A stretch of 64,000 nt of DNA from Marinicella sediminis (GTDB taxonomy: Bacteria > Pseudomonadota > Gammaproteobacteria > Xanthomonadales > Marinicellaceae), in contig NZ_MVBD01000001.1 of assembly GCF_002000055.1 (NCBI RefSeq), positions 1 to 64,000 on the forward strand, written 5' to 3'. Positions 33,809 through 41,404 of the stretch are shown here, in pieces. Made by a program: the position numbers and the translations under genes. How positions within the stretch are numbered: position 1 is the first letter of the stretch; the number at the start of each line of letters is the position of its first letter. The notes under the pieces were generated by a model. The model saw only the letters and a program-made list of their open reading frames with translations, was not told the origin of the DNA and searched no databases.

Positions 33809-35023
33809 TTACAGTTTCCTGATTTCGGCGCTTTGTTCGTGATAGGTCAACCCTTCGGCCGCAGCCAGCTTGGCGGATATGTTAGCCAGCACACCTCGAC
33901 CGGTGTTGTTGATTTTCTGGGTTGACTGGACTTTCAGAAACTGGTGGACACTCAGCCCGCCGGAAAATTTGGCTGCTCCGGCAGTCGGCAGGGTGTGATT
34001 TGGGCCTGCACAGTAGTCACCAAAAGCCACGGCCGAATTTTCTCCGATGAACAATGAGCCATAATTTTTGAACAGTGCGGTTTTCATCGATTCATCGCAA
34101 ACCATCAGGTGTTCCGGGGCATAGTCATTGATGAACGCCAGGGCTTGTGGTTGATCATCGGCCAGCAACAGCACAATGTTGTCATTGTTCAGCAGTTCTT
34201 TGCCTTTGGGGTGTTCATCCAGTAAATCATACAGGTTTTCCAGTAATTCAGGGGTTTCGCTGACCACCACACTGACGGCATTGGCATCATGTTCAGCCTG
34301 TGCCAGCGCATCAAACATCAGCCACTCAGGTTGTTTAATCTGGTTGCCGTAAATCAACAATTCGCTGGGTCCGGCAAGGGTATCAATCTGGGTGCGGTGC
34401 TGGACCTGCGCTTTGGCCTGGTTGACATAAGCATTTCCCGGTCCGACAATCAGGTTGACCGCAGGGGTTTGATCATATCCATAGGACAAGGCTCCTATGG
34501 CCTGGGCACCACCCAAGTGTAAAAACTGAGTGGCGCCGGCCAGGCTGGCAGCTGCCAGCAGTGCCGGGTGATCGGAAGGTGAACAAGCCACACGAACAGG
34601 ACAGCCAGCGACCTGGGCTGGAATCAAGGTCATCAAAGCAGTTGAAATCAGCGGGAACTGGCCACCTGGAATGTATGCGCCGATGTGTTCGATGGGTTGG
34701 TAAACGAAACCAAAATCACCCATTTCATCGCTGAACTGGTCATTTTTCAGGTCTTTGATCTGAAACTGACAAAACTTTTTGATGCGTCGGTGGGCACTTT
34801 GGATCGCATCTTTCAATGATTGGTCAATGGGGTATTCATCGAAGGGTAATAAGTCAATGTATTGAGCATCCTGTTGATCAATTTTCTGGCTGATGGCCTG
34901 CACGGCGGCATCACCATGGTTTTTGATCTTGTCCAGAATTTTGGCCACGGTCTGTTCTATTTTCGACTGGTCTTTGAAAGCCGGTCTGATATAGTCAGTG
35001 ACGTGGCTGTATTTATCGCTCAT
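33809..35023 (-). CDS. hisD: histidinol dehydrogenase
   Basis: 404 residues from ATG 35023 (GCGGAG upstream); it overlaps the end of the hisA-hisIE gene by 11 bases. HisD oxidises histidinol to histidine in two NAD-linked steps (steps 9 and 10). Conserved sites are present: IGAYIPGG, GPGNAYVNQAK, IDTLAGPSELL, AQAEHDANA, YAPEHL and GPNHTLPTAGAAKFSGGLSV. Zinc ligands would be the Gln/His of AQAEH and the later Asp/His set. It is the last gene of the his operon. Length is slightly below the common 430 residues. Confidence 0.93.
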   Translation of the reverse strand: MSDKYSHVTDYIRPAFKDQSKIEQTVAKILDKIKNHGDAAVQAISQKIDQQDAQYIDLLPFDEYPIDQSLKDAIQSAHRRIKKFCQFQIKDLKNDQFSDEMGDFGFVYQPIEHIGAYIPGGQFPLISTALMTLIPAQVAGCPVRVACSPSDHPALLAAASLAGATQFLHLGGAQAIGALSYGYDQTPAVNLIVGPGNAYVNQAKAQVQHRTQIDTLAGPSELLIYGNQIKQPEWLMFDALAQAEHDANAVSVVVSETPELLENLYDLLDEHPKGKELLNNDNIVLLLADDQPQALAFINDYAPEHLMVCDESMKTALFKNYGSLFIGENSAVAFGDYCAGPNHTLPTAGAAKFSGGLSVHQFLKVQSTQKINNTGRGVLANISAKLAAAEGLTYHEQSAEIRKL

Positions 35024-36257
35024 GGTTTCGACTCCGCAGGTCATTGATGATTTCATTGATGCTGACCCCCTTGGATTTGGCCATTACCAGGGTAAAAAAC
35101 AACAGATCAGCTGCTTCCCAGCGCACGTGGTTGTGTTCGCTGGCTTCTATTAACTCAGCACATTCTTCATTTAATTTCTCAATTTGCAAGTTTTTATCGG
35201 TAAACAATTGCTGAGAAAACGATTTTTGTGAACTGTTTTGCGCTGCAGTCTGTCGTTCGGTCAATACTTCATCCAGGTAATCCAATGAGTAATTTTTGGT
35301 TTGACTGGCAAAACAGGAGTAACGATCAAAGTGGCAGGCGTGGTCGGTTTGTTCGACCAGAAACAACAAAGTATCACCATCACAATCCACATCCACTTGT
35401 GTCAGTTTCTGGGTGTTGTTGCTGGTTTCTCCTTTGGTCCATAATTGGTTTCGTGATCGGGAAAAATAGGTGCCGGTGCGGTGGGTTAATGCATGATTCA
35501 GTGATTCAGCAGAAGAATAAGCCATCATCAGTACTTTGCCTGTTTTGACATCCTGTACCACTGTTGGAATCAGGGGCAATTTGTCAAAATCAACCAGACA
35601 GCTGAATGCTTCAGTTAATGACATTTTGCCTGAATAGATGGCCATGCCGATCTGAGAATTGGCACCATGGCGATTGATCCATTGCAGATCCTCATAACTG
35701 GTGATGCCACCAGCGACCGTCACCGGGATCGGAGAAGCTTTGATGACCTCGCTGATTCGTGGTTGGTCAATGCCCTGCATCATGCCTTCTTTTTTGACCT
35801 GGGTGTACAGGAATTCGCCACAGTGTTGTGCCCAATCTGCAATGATGTCCAGTACTTTGATATCCTGGGTTTTCTTCCAGCCATGGGTGGTCAAATAATC
35901 ATCTTTGGCATCGATGGCAAAAATCAGTGCCTGGCGGGGCAATTTCTTCACCCAGTCCTGGCTGGCGGATGTGCCAAGAATGATTTTGGTGGCACCAGCT
36001 GCCAGGTAGTTTTTGGCGGTTTGCAGGTCACGAATGCCTCCACCAACCCGGCAAGGTCGTTTCCTCAATAACTGTTCAATCAGCTCCCGATTGGAGCCCT
36101 TACCCATGGCCGCATCCAGATCAATGATGGCCACTTCACCATACATGGCAAACTCGTCCAATAAATCAAACACGTCCTCGCGTTCGATGATTTTTTTATC
36201 GCCTTGTTGTAGCTGGACGGCTTTGCCGTTCATCAGGTCGATGCTCGGTATCAACAT
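35013..36257 (-). CDS. hisA-hisIE: trifunctional HisA-HisI-HisE fusion protein
   Basis: 414 residues from ATG 36257, seven bases after AGGAG; an ATG two codons earlier is too close to it. Residues 1-225 are HisA, the ProFAR isomerase (step 4): MLIPSIDLMNGKAVQLQQG, VGGGIRD, AIDAKDD. Residues 228-320 are HisI (phosphoribosyl-AMP cyclohydrolase, step 3): LIPTVVQDVKTGKVLMMAYS, YFSRSRNQLWTKGETS, DVDCDGDTLL with Cys292, and DHACH with Cys308. Residues 345-414 are HisE (pyrophosphohydrolase, step 2): NEECAELIEASEHNHVRWEAADLLFF. HisIE fusions are common; joining them to HisA is unusual. In the HisA part the loop usually reading (T)xxxxDG reads TQVKKEG, so the expected general-acid Asp is Glu157. Confidence 0.88.
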   Translation of the reverse strand: MLIPSIDLMNGKAVQLQQGDKKIIEREDVFDLLDEFAMYGEVAIIDLDAAMGKGSNRELIEQLLRKRPCRVGGGIRDLQTAKNYLAAGATKIILGTSASQDWVKKLPRQALIFAIDAKDDYLTTHGWKKTQDIKVLDIIADWAQHCGEFLYTQVKKEGMMQGIDQPRISEVIKASPIPVTVAGGITSYEDLQWINRHGANSQIGMAIYSGKMSLTEAFSCLVDFDKLPLIPTVVQDVKTGKVLMMAYSSAESLNHALTHRTGTYFSRSRNQLWTKGETSNNTQKLTQVDVDCDGDTLLFLVEQTDHACHFDRYSCFASQTKNYSLDYLDEVLTERQTAAQNSSQKSFSQQLFTDKNLQIEKLNEECAELIEASEHNHVRWEAADLLFFTLVMAKSKGVSINEIINDLRSRNHER

Positions 36258-36312
36258 ATTCATTCTCCTTTCGTGATTCTGTCTGAGGCTCATAGCGGCG
36301 TTGTGGCAGTGC

Positions 36313-36396
36313 TCGCATGATCACGTATAAAAATACGCTCACATGCTGTGCGCTGGCATGCCTTGCTCTGAACCACAGCCCGAACCACTTGTTCAA
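36313..36396. repeat. intergenic direct repeat, copy A (within his operon gap)
   Basis: A 36-nt block at 36313-36348 and a 16-nt block at 36381-36396 recur exactly 228 bp further on. The 36-nt block can fold: GCATG and CGTAT pair with ATACG and CATGC around an AAAA loop. It stands in the 359-bp gap between hisF and hisA-hisIE. Confidence 0.75.
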
Positions 36397-36540
36397 CTTT
36401 GGTTGTTGTTCATTGTCTGGCATGTCACGATCAGTGCTCGATTCACATGCCTTGCGTTGTCAAACCGGGCCTCGAATCACAGTTCAAAACCCGCATTATA
36501 TCCATTGGTTCATCTGTCAGGCTCGGCGTTGTGGTTGTAC

Positions 36541-36624
36541 TCGCATGATCACGTATAAAAATACGCTCACATGCTGCGTGCACCCACGCCTTGTCCTGAT
36601 AAACAGCTCGAACCACTTGTTCAA
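36541..36624. repeat. intergenic direct repeat, copy B (within his operon gap)
   Basis: Identical 36-nt block (36541-36576) and 16-nt block (36609-36624), with the same 68-bp internal spacing as copy A. Bases just before both copies (GGCGTTGTGG) are also shared, while the rest between has diverged. Confidence 0.75.
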
Positions 36625-38009: not shown

Positions 38010-38578
38010 AAGACCCCCTTGGTTGAGCGTTCACCACTGACCGGTTGTAAGGCTTCTTTGAGGGCGTATGCCAGGGCTTTGAAAGCGCCTTCAACCAGGT
38101 GGTGGTTGTTGCGGAAGTATTGGTTTTTAAGGTGCAGACAGATTTTGCTGTTGATTGCCAGGGTGTAAAAAAAGTGTTCCCACATTTCGGTGTTGATGCC
38201 GCCCAGCGTGGGCTGTGAAAAGGGCAGATCAATCACCGCATAAGGCCGTCCGCACAAATCAACTGCACATTGGGTCAGGGCTTCATCCATGGGCAGCAGG
38301 CGTTGGCCGTACCGCTGATTGGGTTTGGCATCCTGCCAGGCCTGATACAAAGCCTCACCCAGACAAATCGCCACATCTTCTATGCCATGGTGGTCATCGA
38401 CCTCCAGATCTGCAGTGACTTTGAGGTTGAGGTTCCAGCCAGCATGCGAAGCCAGTTGGTCCAGCATGTGATCAAAAAAGGGCAGGCCGGTGTCTATGTC
38501 TTTGTCAGCTGGATTGCCTTTGATGTCAAGTGACAATGCAATCTGGGTTTCTTTGGTTGCTCGTGATACCTGGATCAT
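38006..38578 (-). CDS. hisB: imidazoleglycerol-phosphate dehydratase (monofunctional)
   Basis: 190 residues covering only the dehydratase domain (step 6). The two manganese-binding His clusters are visible: FFDHMLDQLASHAG with DDHHGIEDVAICLGEAL, and WEHFFYTLA with NNHHLVEGAFKALA. In enteric bacteria HisB also carries an N-terminal HAD histidinol phosphatase; here that domain is missing and a HAD domain is instead fused to HisC, just upstream. Overlaps that gene by ATGA. Confidence 0.95.
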   Translation of the reverse strand: MIQVSRATKETQIALSLDIKGNPADKDIDTGLPFFDHMLDQLASHAGWNLNLKVTADLEVDDHHGIEDVAICLGEALYQAWQDAKPNQRYGQRLLPMDEALTQCAVDLCGRPYAVIDLPFSQPTLGGINTEMWEHFFYTLAINSKICLHLKNQYFRNNHHLVEGAFKALAYALKEALQPVSGERSTKGVL

Positions 38579-40212
38579 AAGAGTGTCTCAAGTTGGTTGA
38601 TGTTTTCAAGGACCACATCGGCCCCTGCCTGAAAGAGGTTGTTTTTGGCTTGCGTGGTTTTGGCACCAATGCCGATGCAAACACACCCCGCTGCCTGGCC
38701 GGCCTGCATGTCATCGACTGTGTCACCACAATACCAGGCCCGTTCTGCTGCGGTGTCTCTCATCACCTGCAACAGCCCTTGTGGATCGGGTTTTTGTTGG
38801 CTAACGTCATCAGCACTGACCAGCTCATTGGGGTTGATGTCCAGTTGTGCTGTTCCTTGTTCGGCTTCAGCCCGCGGTCTGCCGGTCACCACCGCTGTAC
38901 GGTATGTGCTTGATTTGAACACCCGTTGGCGCATCGGGTCAAGCAGCAGGTTTTTTTCCTGACTGACCAGGCCCGGTTGTTCAGCCGTGCCCAGGTAAAT
39001 GGACTGAAAGGTACTGACCACTGTGTCAAAATCCACCGCATTACCGGTTTGTTTGATCAGTTCGGCACAGAGCACCCAGTCATTGTTGAAGCCACCCTTT
39101 GCGCGCACCTTTTCGATGTCTTGTTGGGTGACCTGTTGTGGGGTCAAAGTCGCGACCGTTTGTCTGATGCATTCATCATAGCTGGCGGTGGTGTCGATCA
39201 ACACCCCGTCCATGTCAAAAGCCAGCAGTTGCGGATCAAGAATTAACTGTAATGCATTCATCAGTGCTGTCGTGTTTTCTGGAATGGTCAGCCGCACGGC
39301 ATTGGGCAGGTCAGCCAATTCAGTTTTGATCTGTATGCCTGATTTTTTCATCACCCGGTCAAACAGTATTTTTTGTCGGGGGTTGGTTTGAAACAACAAA
39401 AAATTGCCCCTGCTGGGAAAAGGCTGCAGGCCATTTTTGTCAAGAAATTGAGCAATCTGGGTGCGGTTTTCTGCAATGCGCTGGCAATATACGCTGACCT
39501 CATCCCTGGCCTGCCAGGCTGCTGTGGCCAGTTGTAAGTTGGCACGTGACACATTAAATGGCATGGCCAGTCGCCTGAATTCAGCAATCAGCTCCGGTTG
39601 GCCAAAGACATAGCCAATCCGTGCGCCGGCCAGGCCAAAGGCCTTGGAAAAAGTTCTCAGGGTTACCAGGTTCTGATGGGCTGCATAATCGATGCCTTCA
39701 CCCTCATTGGCAAATTCAACATAGGCCTCATCAAGAAAAACCTTTGCGCCCACCTGACTGGCGGCTTTGATCAGCTCCAGCAGCCGACCGGACTCCAGGA
39801 ATTCGCCCGTGGGGTTGTTGGGACGGGTGAGGATCACCCATTGATTCGGTTTCATGGCTGCGGTAATGGCTTGTGTATCGATCGACAAGTCTTCATTGGC
39901 TGGCACAAAAATGGTGTCATTCTGCCAGATCTTTTGGTTATGGGTATATTGGCTGAAACAAGGCTCAGGCACCAGCAGTGACTGATCAGTGAGCTTACAT
40001 AATTTGTACAGCAGTTCGATGCTTTCATCACCACCATTGGTCAGCAGTACAGCAGATGGTGGCAACTGCAGGTCGGTGGCCAGTTGTTGTTCCAGCGCTG
40101 TACGGTCCGGGTAGCGCCACAGCTCATCGCTGTTCAAAGCAAAGGCTGACAACCAGGCGGGTGTGGAATCAGCCCGCTCGTTGAAATCCAGTTTGAGTGA
40201 CACGTCTTTCAT
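38575..40212 (-). CDS. hisC: HisC fused to a HAD-family phosphatase
   Basis: 545 residues in one frame. Residues 1-325 form histidinol-phosphate aminotransferase (step 7): DEAYVEF at 161, TFSKAFGLAGARIGY with PLP Lys190, TRPNNPTGEFL. Residues 328-545 form a HAD subfamily IA phosphatase: DMDGVLIDT (D333, D335), VVTGRP (T443), KPDP (K474), GDTVDD (497-501). The natural reading is a histidinol-phosphate phosphatase (step 8), so the enzyme would do two consecutive steps. No other candidate for step 8 was seen in the operon. The phosphatase substrate is inferred. The C-terminal stop overlaps hisB (ATGA). Confidence 0.85.
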   Translation of the reverse strand: MKDVSLKLDFNERADSTPAWLSAFALNSDELWRYPDRTALEQQLATDLQLPPSAVLLTNGGDESIELLYKLCKLTDQSLLVPEPCFSQYTHNQKIWQNDTIFVPANEDLSIDTQAITAAMKPNQWVILTRPNNPTGEFLESGRLLELIKAASQVGAKVFLDEAYVEFANEGEGIDYAAHQNLVTLRTFSKAFGLAGARIGYVFGQPELIAEFRRLAMPFNVSRANLQLATAAWQARDEVSVYCQRIAENRTQIAQFLDKNGLQPFPSRGNFLLFQTNPRQKILFDRVMKKSGIQIKTELADLPNAVRLTIPENTTALMNALQLILDPQLLAFDMDGVLIDTTASYDECIRQTVATLTPQQVTQQDIEKVRAKGGFNNDWVLCAELIKQTGNAVDFDTVVSTFQSIYLGTAEQPGLVSQEKNLLLDPMRQRVFKSSTYRTAVVTGRPRAEAEQGTAQLDINPNELVSADDVSQQKPDPQGLLQVMRDTAAERAWYCGDTVDDMQAGQAAGCVCIGIGAKTTQAKNNLFQAGADVVLENINQLETLL

Positions 40213-40215
40213 TGT

Positions 40216-41064
40216 TTACACCACTTTTCTGATGGGCAGCTCAAGGATGTCGGTGGCGCCGGCCTGCTTGAGTTTAGGAATCAGGTCTTTGGTCGCCATT
40301 TTGGGAATGGCGGCACGCACTGAATAGGCTTGGGAGTTGAACAGCTGGGCCACTGTTGGTGAGCGCATGGCCGGTAGCAATGCCACAATTTTTTCGATGT
40401 TTTCACTTTGGCAGTTCATTTCCAGCAACACCCTTTGACGGGCATTCATCACCCCGTTGATCAGCAGCAGCATGTCGTCAATCACGGCTTTTTTGGCAGG
40501 GTCTGCCAGGGCCGCTTTGTTGGCAAAAAACTGGGTGGCACTTTCATAAACCACATCACAGATTTTCAGACGGTTGGCTTTGATGGTGGTTCCGGTACTG
40601 GTGTTGTCAATCACCATGTCAGCATCTTCCGGGGGAAACACTTCAGTGGCACCATACGAGCGGATAAGCTGGGCATCGAAACCATTGTCATCAAGGAACT
40701 TTTGAGCCAGATTCATGTACTCCGTGGCTACAATGATTTTGCGTTGTTTCAGTGCTTCATAATCCCAGTCTTCTGGGATGCAGGCAACGATCTGTACCGG
40801 ATTGTATCCAAGGGGTTTGATGATTTCCACATCAGCACCCTGTTCAGCAATCCAATCCAACCCGGCAAAACCAATGTCGTGCTGACCTAATTCCACCAAC
40901 GAAGGGATGTTTTGACCTTTGAGCAATTTAATCTCAAAACGTTCATCGGAACAATTGGGCCGGTAATTGCGTTCACTGCCCATGATTTTGATGCCGATGT
41001 CGGACAACAGCCGGTCAATTTCAATTTGCAGTTTGCCTTTGGGAATGGCCATTTTAATTTTCAT
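40216..41064 (-). CDS. hisG: ATP phosphoribosyltransferase, long form
   Basis: 282 residues. HisG starts the pathway by joining ATP and PRPP, and is the feedback-controlled step. Landmarks: MAIPKGKLQIEIDRLLSDIG, GLDWIAEQGADVEI, the PRPP loop VIDNTSTGTTIKANRLKI, and a C-terminal ACT-like regulatory domain ending in PAMRSPTVAQLFNSQAYSVRAAIPK. The long form does not need HisZ; none was seen. It is the first structural gene of the operon and stands 47 bases after the second leader terminator, so both leaders should control it. Confidence 0.95.
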   Translation of the reverse strand: MKIKMAIPKGKLQIEIDRLLSDIGIKIMGSERNYRPNCSDERFEIKLLKGQNIPSLVELGQHDIGFAGLDWIAEQGADVEIIKPLGYNPVQIVACIPEDWDYEALKQRKIIVATEYMNLAQKFLDDNGFDAQLIRSYGATEVFPPEDADMVIDNTSTGTTIKANRLKICDVVYESATQFFANKAALADPAKKAVIDDMLLLINGVMNARQRVLLEMNCQSENIEKIVALLPAMRSPTVAQLFNSQAYSVRAAIPKMATKDLIPKLKQAGATDILELPIRKVV

Positions 41065-41110: not shown

Positions 41111-41140
41111 AAAAAAAACCCCGTATTTTCGACGGGGCTT
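41111..41140 (-). terminator. his attenuator 2: terminator between second leader peptide and hisG
   Basis: On the minus strand AAGCCCCGT (41140-41132) pairs with ACGGGGTTT (41124-41116), with one G-U pair and a 7-nt loop, followed by a U-run ending at 41111. The rival pairing would be GACGGCGC inside leader 2 (41173-41166) with GCCCCGTC (41138-41131), seven of eight bases. Confidence 0.8.
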
Positions 41141-41159
41141 CGTGAATTAAATGCGAACT

Positions 41160-41222
41160 TCAGCAGCGCCGTCTCCTTATGTCGGTCAAATGATGGTGGT
41201 TGGCTGTGATGTTGATGTTCAT
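41160..41222 (-). CDS. his leader peptide 2 (NHHHL; attenuator)
   Basis: A 20-codon frame from ATG 41222 to TGA 41162-41160. Codons 9-11 are CAC CAT CAT, three histidines in a row, followed by Leu; the end is four Arg and Cys. A terminator lies 20 bases downstream. The Shine-Dalgarno is poor, as often in leaders. The 13-nt CCACCATCATTTG block covering the His codons (41187-41199) is identical to that in leader 1. Translation stalling at His codons would free the antiterminator. The 20-residue size and position are as in known hisL leaders. No ORF caller would find it. Confidence 0.72.
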   Translation of the reverse strand: MNINITANHHHLTDIRRRRC

Positions 41223-41249
41223 ATAAAAGATCTGTTCGTTAAATGAAGC

Positions 41250-41281
41250 AAAAAAAAACCCCGTTTCGATGAACGGGGTTT
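41250..41281 (-). terminator. his attenuator 1: terminator after first leader peptide
   Basis: Minus strand: AAACCCCGTT (41281-41272) and AACGGGGTTT (41265-41256), a perfect 10-bp stem with a 6-nt loop and nine U. Antiterminator partner: AACGGGGT inside leader 1 (41323-41316), eight bases complementary to the 5' arm and identical to the 3' arm. Confidence 0.85.
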
Positions 41282-41308
41282 TTAAGAAAACTTTTTTTCA
41301 AACCGGCA

Positions 41309-41368
41309 CTAAGCCACCCCGTTGTCAAGCAACAAATGATGGTGGATGTGTGCGATTCGTGATGTCAT
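41309..41368 (-). CDS. hisL: his leader peptide 1 (HIHHH; attenuator)
   Basis: From ATG 41368 the frame reads MTSRIAHIHHHLLLDNGVA and stops at TAG 41311-41309. Four of five residues (HIHHH) are His. An ATG three codons earlier (41377) overlaps the -10 of the best promoter and would be upstream of its start point, so the shorter start is preferred; the transcript would then be almost leaderless. The CCACC of the His codons (41345-41341) can pair with GGTGG at 41318-41314, and that region holds the antiterminator arm. This gives the 1:2, 2:3, 3:4 folding logic of classical attenuation. Confidence 0.75.
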   Translation of the reverse strand: MTSRIAHIHHHLLLDNGVA

Positions 41369-41375
41369 GCTTGGC

Positions 41376-41404
41376 ATGTTAGTCAGGTTTATTGTTAATG
41401 TCAA
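41376..41404 (-). promoter_or_regulatory. candidate his operon promoter
   Basis: Minus strand: TTGACA (41404-41399), a perfect -35, 17-bp spacer, then TAACAT (41381-41376) as -10. It points to hisL and hisG. No other sigma-70-like pair of this quality was seen upstream. Confidence 0.6.

Follow-up and report, generated by a model that had tools for sequence, protein, structure and literature searches.

Two predicted histidine attenuators in series ahead of the his operon of Marinicella sediminis and its relatives

Organization of the his leader region

The his operon of Marinicella sediminis is very probably preceded by two complete attenuators that respond to the same signal and lie in series, which amounts to a doubling of classical ribosome-mediated his attenuation. 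This reading is built on the anatomy of the leader region, its conservation among relatives, the complementarity and compensatory changes of its pairing segments, the geometry of the two units and the presence of a promoter before unit 1 only. The first-pass annotation had proposed a tandem his attenuator from the letters of this DNA, and the comparative data presented below support that interpretation.

The window, defined as the whole stretch of 64,000 nucleotides that was analysed, was read on the minus strand from 41404 to 41064, where a promoter, leader 1, the terminator T1, leader 2, the terminator T2 and hisG follow one another. The TTGACA-17-TAACAT promoter announced ahead of leader 1 is present (41376–41404, minus strand). 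It is of the sigma-70 type, with hexamers at 41404–41399 (TTGACA) and 41381–41376 (TAACAT) and a spacer of 17, and 7 nt (41369–41375) separate its -10 hexamer from the leader 1 ATG. The two His-rich frames that had been described before hisG were recovered as well. Leader peptide 1 (MTSRIAHIHHHLLLDNGVA; 41309–41368, minus strand), which is probably leaderless, begins with the ATG at 41368 and its TAG ends at 41309; leader peptide 2 (MNINITANHHHLTDIRRRRC; 41160–41222, minus strand) begins with the ATG at 41222 and its TGA ends at 41160. Leader 2 has neither a promoter of its own nor a clear Shine-Dalgarno sequence, and its start was read as internal initiation. The segment CCACCATCATTTG is indeed common to both His blocks, as had been pointed out, although most of it is simply His codons and it carries little weight alone. 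A second in-frame ATG for leader 1 occurs at 41377, overlapping the -10 hexamer.

Each leader is followed by a predicted intrinsic terminator. T1 (41254–41283, minus strand) has a 12-bp stem and then a U tract, with a folding energy of -16.0 kcal/mol that was equalled by none of 200 shuffled sequences (z -3.7). T2 (41115–41141, minus strand) has a 10-bp stem and then a U tract and is weaker than T1, at -13.9 kcal/mol, a value equalled by 8 of 200 shuffles (z -2.1). Both terminators had been reported before; the ends then given for them were a few nucleotides off and took in the U tract. Antiterminator segment 1 (AACGGGGT; 41316–41323, minus strand) is located downstream of the last His codon at a distance of 12 nt, with 4 nt remaining to the stop, and pairs with the 5' arm of T1 at 8 of 8 positions, as claimed (-14.2 kcal/mol; p 0.03 against shuffles). 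Antiterminator segment 2 (GACGGCGCT; 41165–41173, minus strand) has one mismatch to the 5' arm of T2, in keeping with the 7 of 8 pairs that had been counted for ACGGCGCT (41172–41165); the duplex energy of this window copy is -13.2 kcal/mol, with p 0.12 when taken alone. The units are directly followed by hisG (40216–41064, minus strand), the first gene of the cognate biosynthetic operon hisG-hisC::HAD-hisB-hisH-hisF-hisA::hisIE-hisD, which runs on the minus strand from 41064 down to 33809.

When both strands of the window (64 kb) were searched for leader-plus-terminator units, exactly two sites were returned, namely those described here. Not one of 2000 first-order Markov versions of the 320-nt region yielded even one unit, and 12 simulated 64-kb strands gave 1 unit in total. 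The hairpin pattern CCCCGT-N3..12-ACGGGG was found only at T1 and T2 within the 3.99 Mb assembly. A chance origin is ruled out by this unique hairpin together with the Markov simulations, and the uniqueness of the hairpin also rules out that the shared arms represent a common genomic terminator sequence.

Conservation of the two units

The comparison set consisted of 59 loci with distinct upstream regions, the nearest named genomes being Marinicella marina, litoralis, meishanensis, pacifica and gelatinilytica. Two complete units were identified in 33 distinct genomes, many of them closely related to each other, comprising 12 Marinicella, 2 members of the sister genus and 19 Kangiella. The first-pass annotation had stated that conserved hairpins with leader frames that are not conserved would refute its reading; this refutation does not apply, since across these 33 genomes from three genera the frames, the His codons, the antiterminators and both terminators were kept jointly. 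The tandem leaders contain 3–6 His codons each, with a mean of 4.9. CAC and CAT swap freely among relatives while the His positions and the frame are kept, and third-position changes predominate in the M. pacifica clade and the Kangiella sets, with a weak bias of this kind in the leader 1 set of Marinicella. The mean computed terminator strength in the tandem loci is equal for both units.

One unit is visible in the other 26 relatives, a count that includes L023, whose contig ends just past the apparent T1 and which is treated as a two-unit locus in the tree. Five Marinicella and most genomes of the sister genus lack unit 2, and the lone unit retained by these Marinicella corresponds in type to leader 1. 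The HisG tree requires at least 6 changes in unit number; one history that fits, with the root unsure, is a single gain in the common ancestor of the Kangiella and Marinicellaceae sequences followed by five losses. Judged from this tree, the double state is old and has been lost several times, and unit 2 is therefore not indispensable. In L006, the sequence past the sole terminator is that found past T2 in its sister L003, so that the loss looks like a deletion or recombination between T1 and T2, whose 3' arms and T tracts are nearly identical.

These losses could also be taken to mean that unit 1 regulates alone, with unit 2 being a decaying duplicate that acts as a constitutive terminator or adds nothing. 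The absence of unit 2 from the genomes named above, the one-gain, five-loss history, the deletion-like state of L006 and the imperfect antiterminator 2 of the window all agree with such a reading. We nevertheless regard it as improbable, given that the His codons, frame, antiterminator and terminator of unit 2 are kept in 33 genomes, that unit 2 shows compensatory changes of its own (L011 and L024, below) and that it is retained in 19 of 19 Kangiella, all of which have both units. The loss of a whole unit is, moreover, a different matter from the decay of a unit that is still present.

HisG of the Marinicellaceae is about 60–64% identical to that of Kangiella, but 25–30% identical to that of most order-mates. 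In view of these identities and the HisG tree, the his operon and its attenuators have probably undergone lateral exchange together, and the control element seems to have moved with the operon between distant bacterial families. A class-wide survey at E 1e-60 detected the same HisG type in none of 368 other Gammaproteobacteria genomes. A His-rich leader and a terminator were also seen ahead of a 47%-identical HisG of the same type on a metagenome-assembled contig labelled Planctomycetota (L058). The order-mate L027 presents another mode of control, with a gene for a TrpR/YerC-type regulator directly upstream of hisG; the HisR regulator of Xanthomonadales has been described in this setting (PMC9413887).

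Antiterminator pairing and covariation

Pairing of the antiterminator with its own terminator 5' arm was stronger than in 300 shuffles at p below 0.05 for 31 of 33 copies of unit 1 and 26 of 33 copies of unit 2, counts that lean upward because the pairs were chosen by best duplex energy. The segments lie about 9–10 nt past the last His codon and near the stop codon in the tandem loci. Masked folding, which gives equilibrium probabilities for an assumed ribosome footprint, returned a mean antiterminator probability of 0.86 for unit 1 and 0.84 for unit 2 with the ribosome placed at the His codons, and of 0.00 and 0.24, respectively, with the ribosome at the stop codon. In 33/33 copies of unit 1 and 25/33 copies of unit 2, including both units of the window, the antiterminator was accessible with the ribosome stalled and occluded with the ribosome at the stop. 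Without any ribosome it forms to 0.31–0.52 on average, and the textbook protecting hairpin is therefore weak here. Signs of an early pause or protecting hairpin (1:2) are weak and not universal: 22 of 92 units show excess pairing (p below 0.05).

The geometry departs from this pattern in nine of the 19 Kangiella (L076, L078, L081–L083, L087, L088, L091 and L094), where leader 2 carries an Arg/Trp-rich tail (RERRWWC...) and its stop falls 22–35 nt beyond the antiterminator. A ribosome at that stop would miss the antiterminator, and the simple model gives no explanation for this late stop.

A comparison of relatives for covariation in both stems had been proposed as a check, and compensatory changes were seen in both units. 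At position +1 of unit 1, the pair is G-C in 18 copies and A-T in 13. Both partners have changed in unit 2 of L011 (CAACAG with CTGTTG) and in L012 (AACGAGG with CCTCGTT), and they have changed jointly in unit 2 of L024 (TCGG with CCGA). The antiterminator pairing of unit 2 extends into loop bases outside the terminator stem, which indicates that it is not a by-product of the stem.

The similarity of the arms raises the question of whether the units act separately. One alternative holds that they are coupled, such that formation of antiterminator 1 leaves the freed T1 3' arm, or segment 1, to pair with the T2 5' arm and thereby extends antitermination. The T1 3' arm and the T2 5' arm of Marinicella do pair, with energies between -11.7 and -17.9 kcal/mol, and in the clade of the window the pairing of segment 1 is about equally good with T2 and with T1. 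No site in the genome other than T1 and T2 carries the arm sequence. In most Kangiella, however, the T1 arm is unlike that of T2 and the antiterminators fit their own terminator far better; segment 1 of L088, for instance, pairs at -15.7 with its own terminator and at -5.9 across units. Shared arms would also be expected from duplication or gene conversion, and coupling appears highly improbable to us as the working principle. An obligatory form of it was rejected, as it is not kept in Kangiella, most of which have insulated units. As the arms are shared, the two units may not be fully independent in the clade of the window.

Transcription start and leader 1

In nearly all loci of the relatives, the promoter ends 6–8 nt before the first codon of leader 1, an ATG or a GTG, and those 6–8 nt vary. 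The usual distance from the -10 hexamer to the start of transcription would place the RNA 5' end at the start codon of leader 1. With the promoter so near, leader 1 probably lacks a 5' untranslated region, its ATG lying at or adjoining +1. The mean promoter match was 10.0 ahead of unit 1 and 7.6 ahead of unit 2, and a score of 9 or more was reached before unit 1 or a single unit in 48 of 58 cases and before unit 2 in 5 of 33. An arrangement of parallel units, in which leader 2 would have its own promoter downstream of T1, was also considered and rejected, no conserved promoter being present there. The thr leader of the same genome (L111, minus strand, about 1044–1063) likewise starts 7 nt past its -10 hexamer, as does his leader 1, and a leaderless start may be the norm for leader peptides in Marinicella.

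A strong promoter and a probably leaderless first frame could belong to a system in which the main role of T1 is to release a trans-acting product, either a short leaderless RNA or a peptide, leaving T2 as the real his attenuator, and the rnTrpL/peTrpL of Sinorhizobium, which acts in trans, provides a precedent (PMC7298713). Leader 1 has the full antiterminator geometry, however, and single-unit Marinicella retain unit 1, not unit 2, as the sole attenuator, which makes this alternative scarcely credible.

Proposed mechanism

Under the preferred reading of two attenuators in series, RNA polymerase would start at or beside the ATG of leader 1. When charged tRNA-His is plentiful, the ribosome would reach the stop of leader 1 and cover the antiterminator, and T1 would end transcription. 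When charged tRNA-His is scarce, the ribosome would stall at the His codons, the antiterminator would pair with the T1 5' arm and the polymerase would continue. A polymerase past T1 would then face an identical test posed by leader 2 with T2, and hisG would be transcribed only after both tests had been passed. This scheme supposes that both terminators are active in vivo, that ribosomes translate both leaders, that transcription has a leaderless start and that the two gates multiply.

The consequence could be stepwise or multiplied control. Given that both gates must be passed, basal read-through would be roughly the product of two small leaks while induced expression stays high, and a lower leak and a steeper response would be expected from gates of equal kind in series. 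Theory for a single gate relates sensitivity to the number and fraction of control codons (PMC1183508). A more elaborate variant, which we put forward tentatively and consider unlikely, is that the two same-signal sensors are loaded differently, leader 1 as a leaderless mRNA and leader 2 by internal initiation. If so, opening of the operon would require a histidine shortage that affects both modes of initiation, with very low leak and a steep response, and stresses that shift leaderless relative to canonical translation could tune histidine synthesis.

Comparison with known systems

Attenuation is a textbook mechanism with one gate. A double his leader, or any pair of ribosome-mediated attenuators for the same amino acid, was not found in the open-access literature searched, where absence is not proof. 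On the sequence evidence, the doubled same-signal his attenuator is a real, conserved and new form of a known mechanism.

Like the enteric hisL (RF00514, His_leader), the Marinicella region combines a leader peptide rich in His codons with an antiterminator/terminator switch and precedes hisG. It differs from hisL, which is a single unit, in having two units, a probably leaderless first frame and a weak protecting hairpin. At the gathering score of 49 bits RF00514 did not match the window, nor did it match the genome of M. sediminis at E 0.001; for this reason it could not be used to decide membership. The his units of Kangiella and Aliikangiella score 27–31 bits, below the 49-bit cut-off, and each unit of Kangiella HZ709 is matched separately with weak, sub-threshold scores. 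As a finder the model was rejected, since it gave no significant match and the weak Rfam matches rest mostly on the terminator hairpins.

The closest described case is Salmonella mgtCBR, in which tandem attenuators respond additively to two signals, ATP and proline, and which its authors called a singular example (PMC3641672). There too, two short translated frames follow each other in one leader and each affects transcription (PMC3641672). In contrast to mgtCBR, which uses two signals and lacks intrinsic terminators, the Marinicella region has one signal, two intrinsic terminators and a biosynthetic operon; both leaders are His-rich, and it is not a two-signal system of the mgtCBR type. Tandem riboswitches and T-boxes also repeat regulatory units serially in one leader (PMC7583486, PMC12452182), but they bind the ligand or tRNA directly, whereas the sensor in Marinicella would be the translating ribosome. 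The leaderless trpL of Sinorhizobium meliloti is similar in that the attenuator frame begins at the RNA 5' end (PMC7298713), and differs in sensing tryptophan, in being a single unit and in belonging to the Alphaproteobacteria.

The natural double, together with related genomes that have one or two units, offers a ready test of what a second gate does to leak, steepness and robustness. Deletion of unit 2 should recreate a state that evolution has reached several times.

Other leaders and features of the operon

The idea that the organism generally builds its attenuators in tandem was rejected, as the ilv attenuator (MNFIANLINNVVVVILVIIGPRVW; L110:1813–1946) and the thr attenuator (MQNRTNTTTTITTRHPMVMC; L111 1063–1177, minus strand) of the same genome are both single. 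Neither the sequence before trpE nor the leuA region examined in this genome showed a leader. Within the operon itself, HisC is fused with a HAD-type phosphatase domain (38575–40212 of the window), HisA and HisI-HisE are fused in one frame (35013–36293), and hisD closes the operon. The 360-nt gap between hisF and hisA contains a 101-nt direct repeat whose copies, at 36296–36396 and 36524–36624, are 85% identical.
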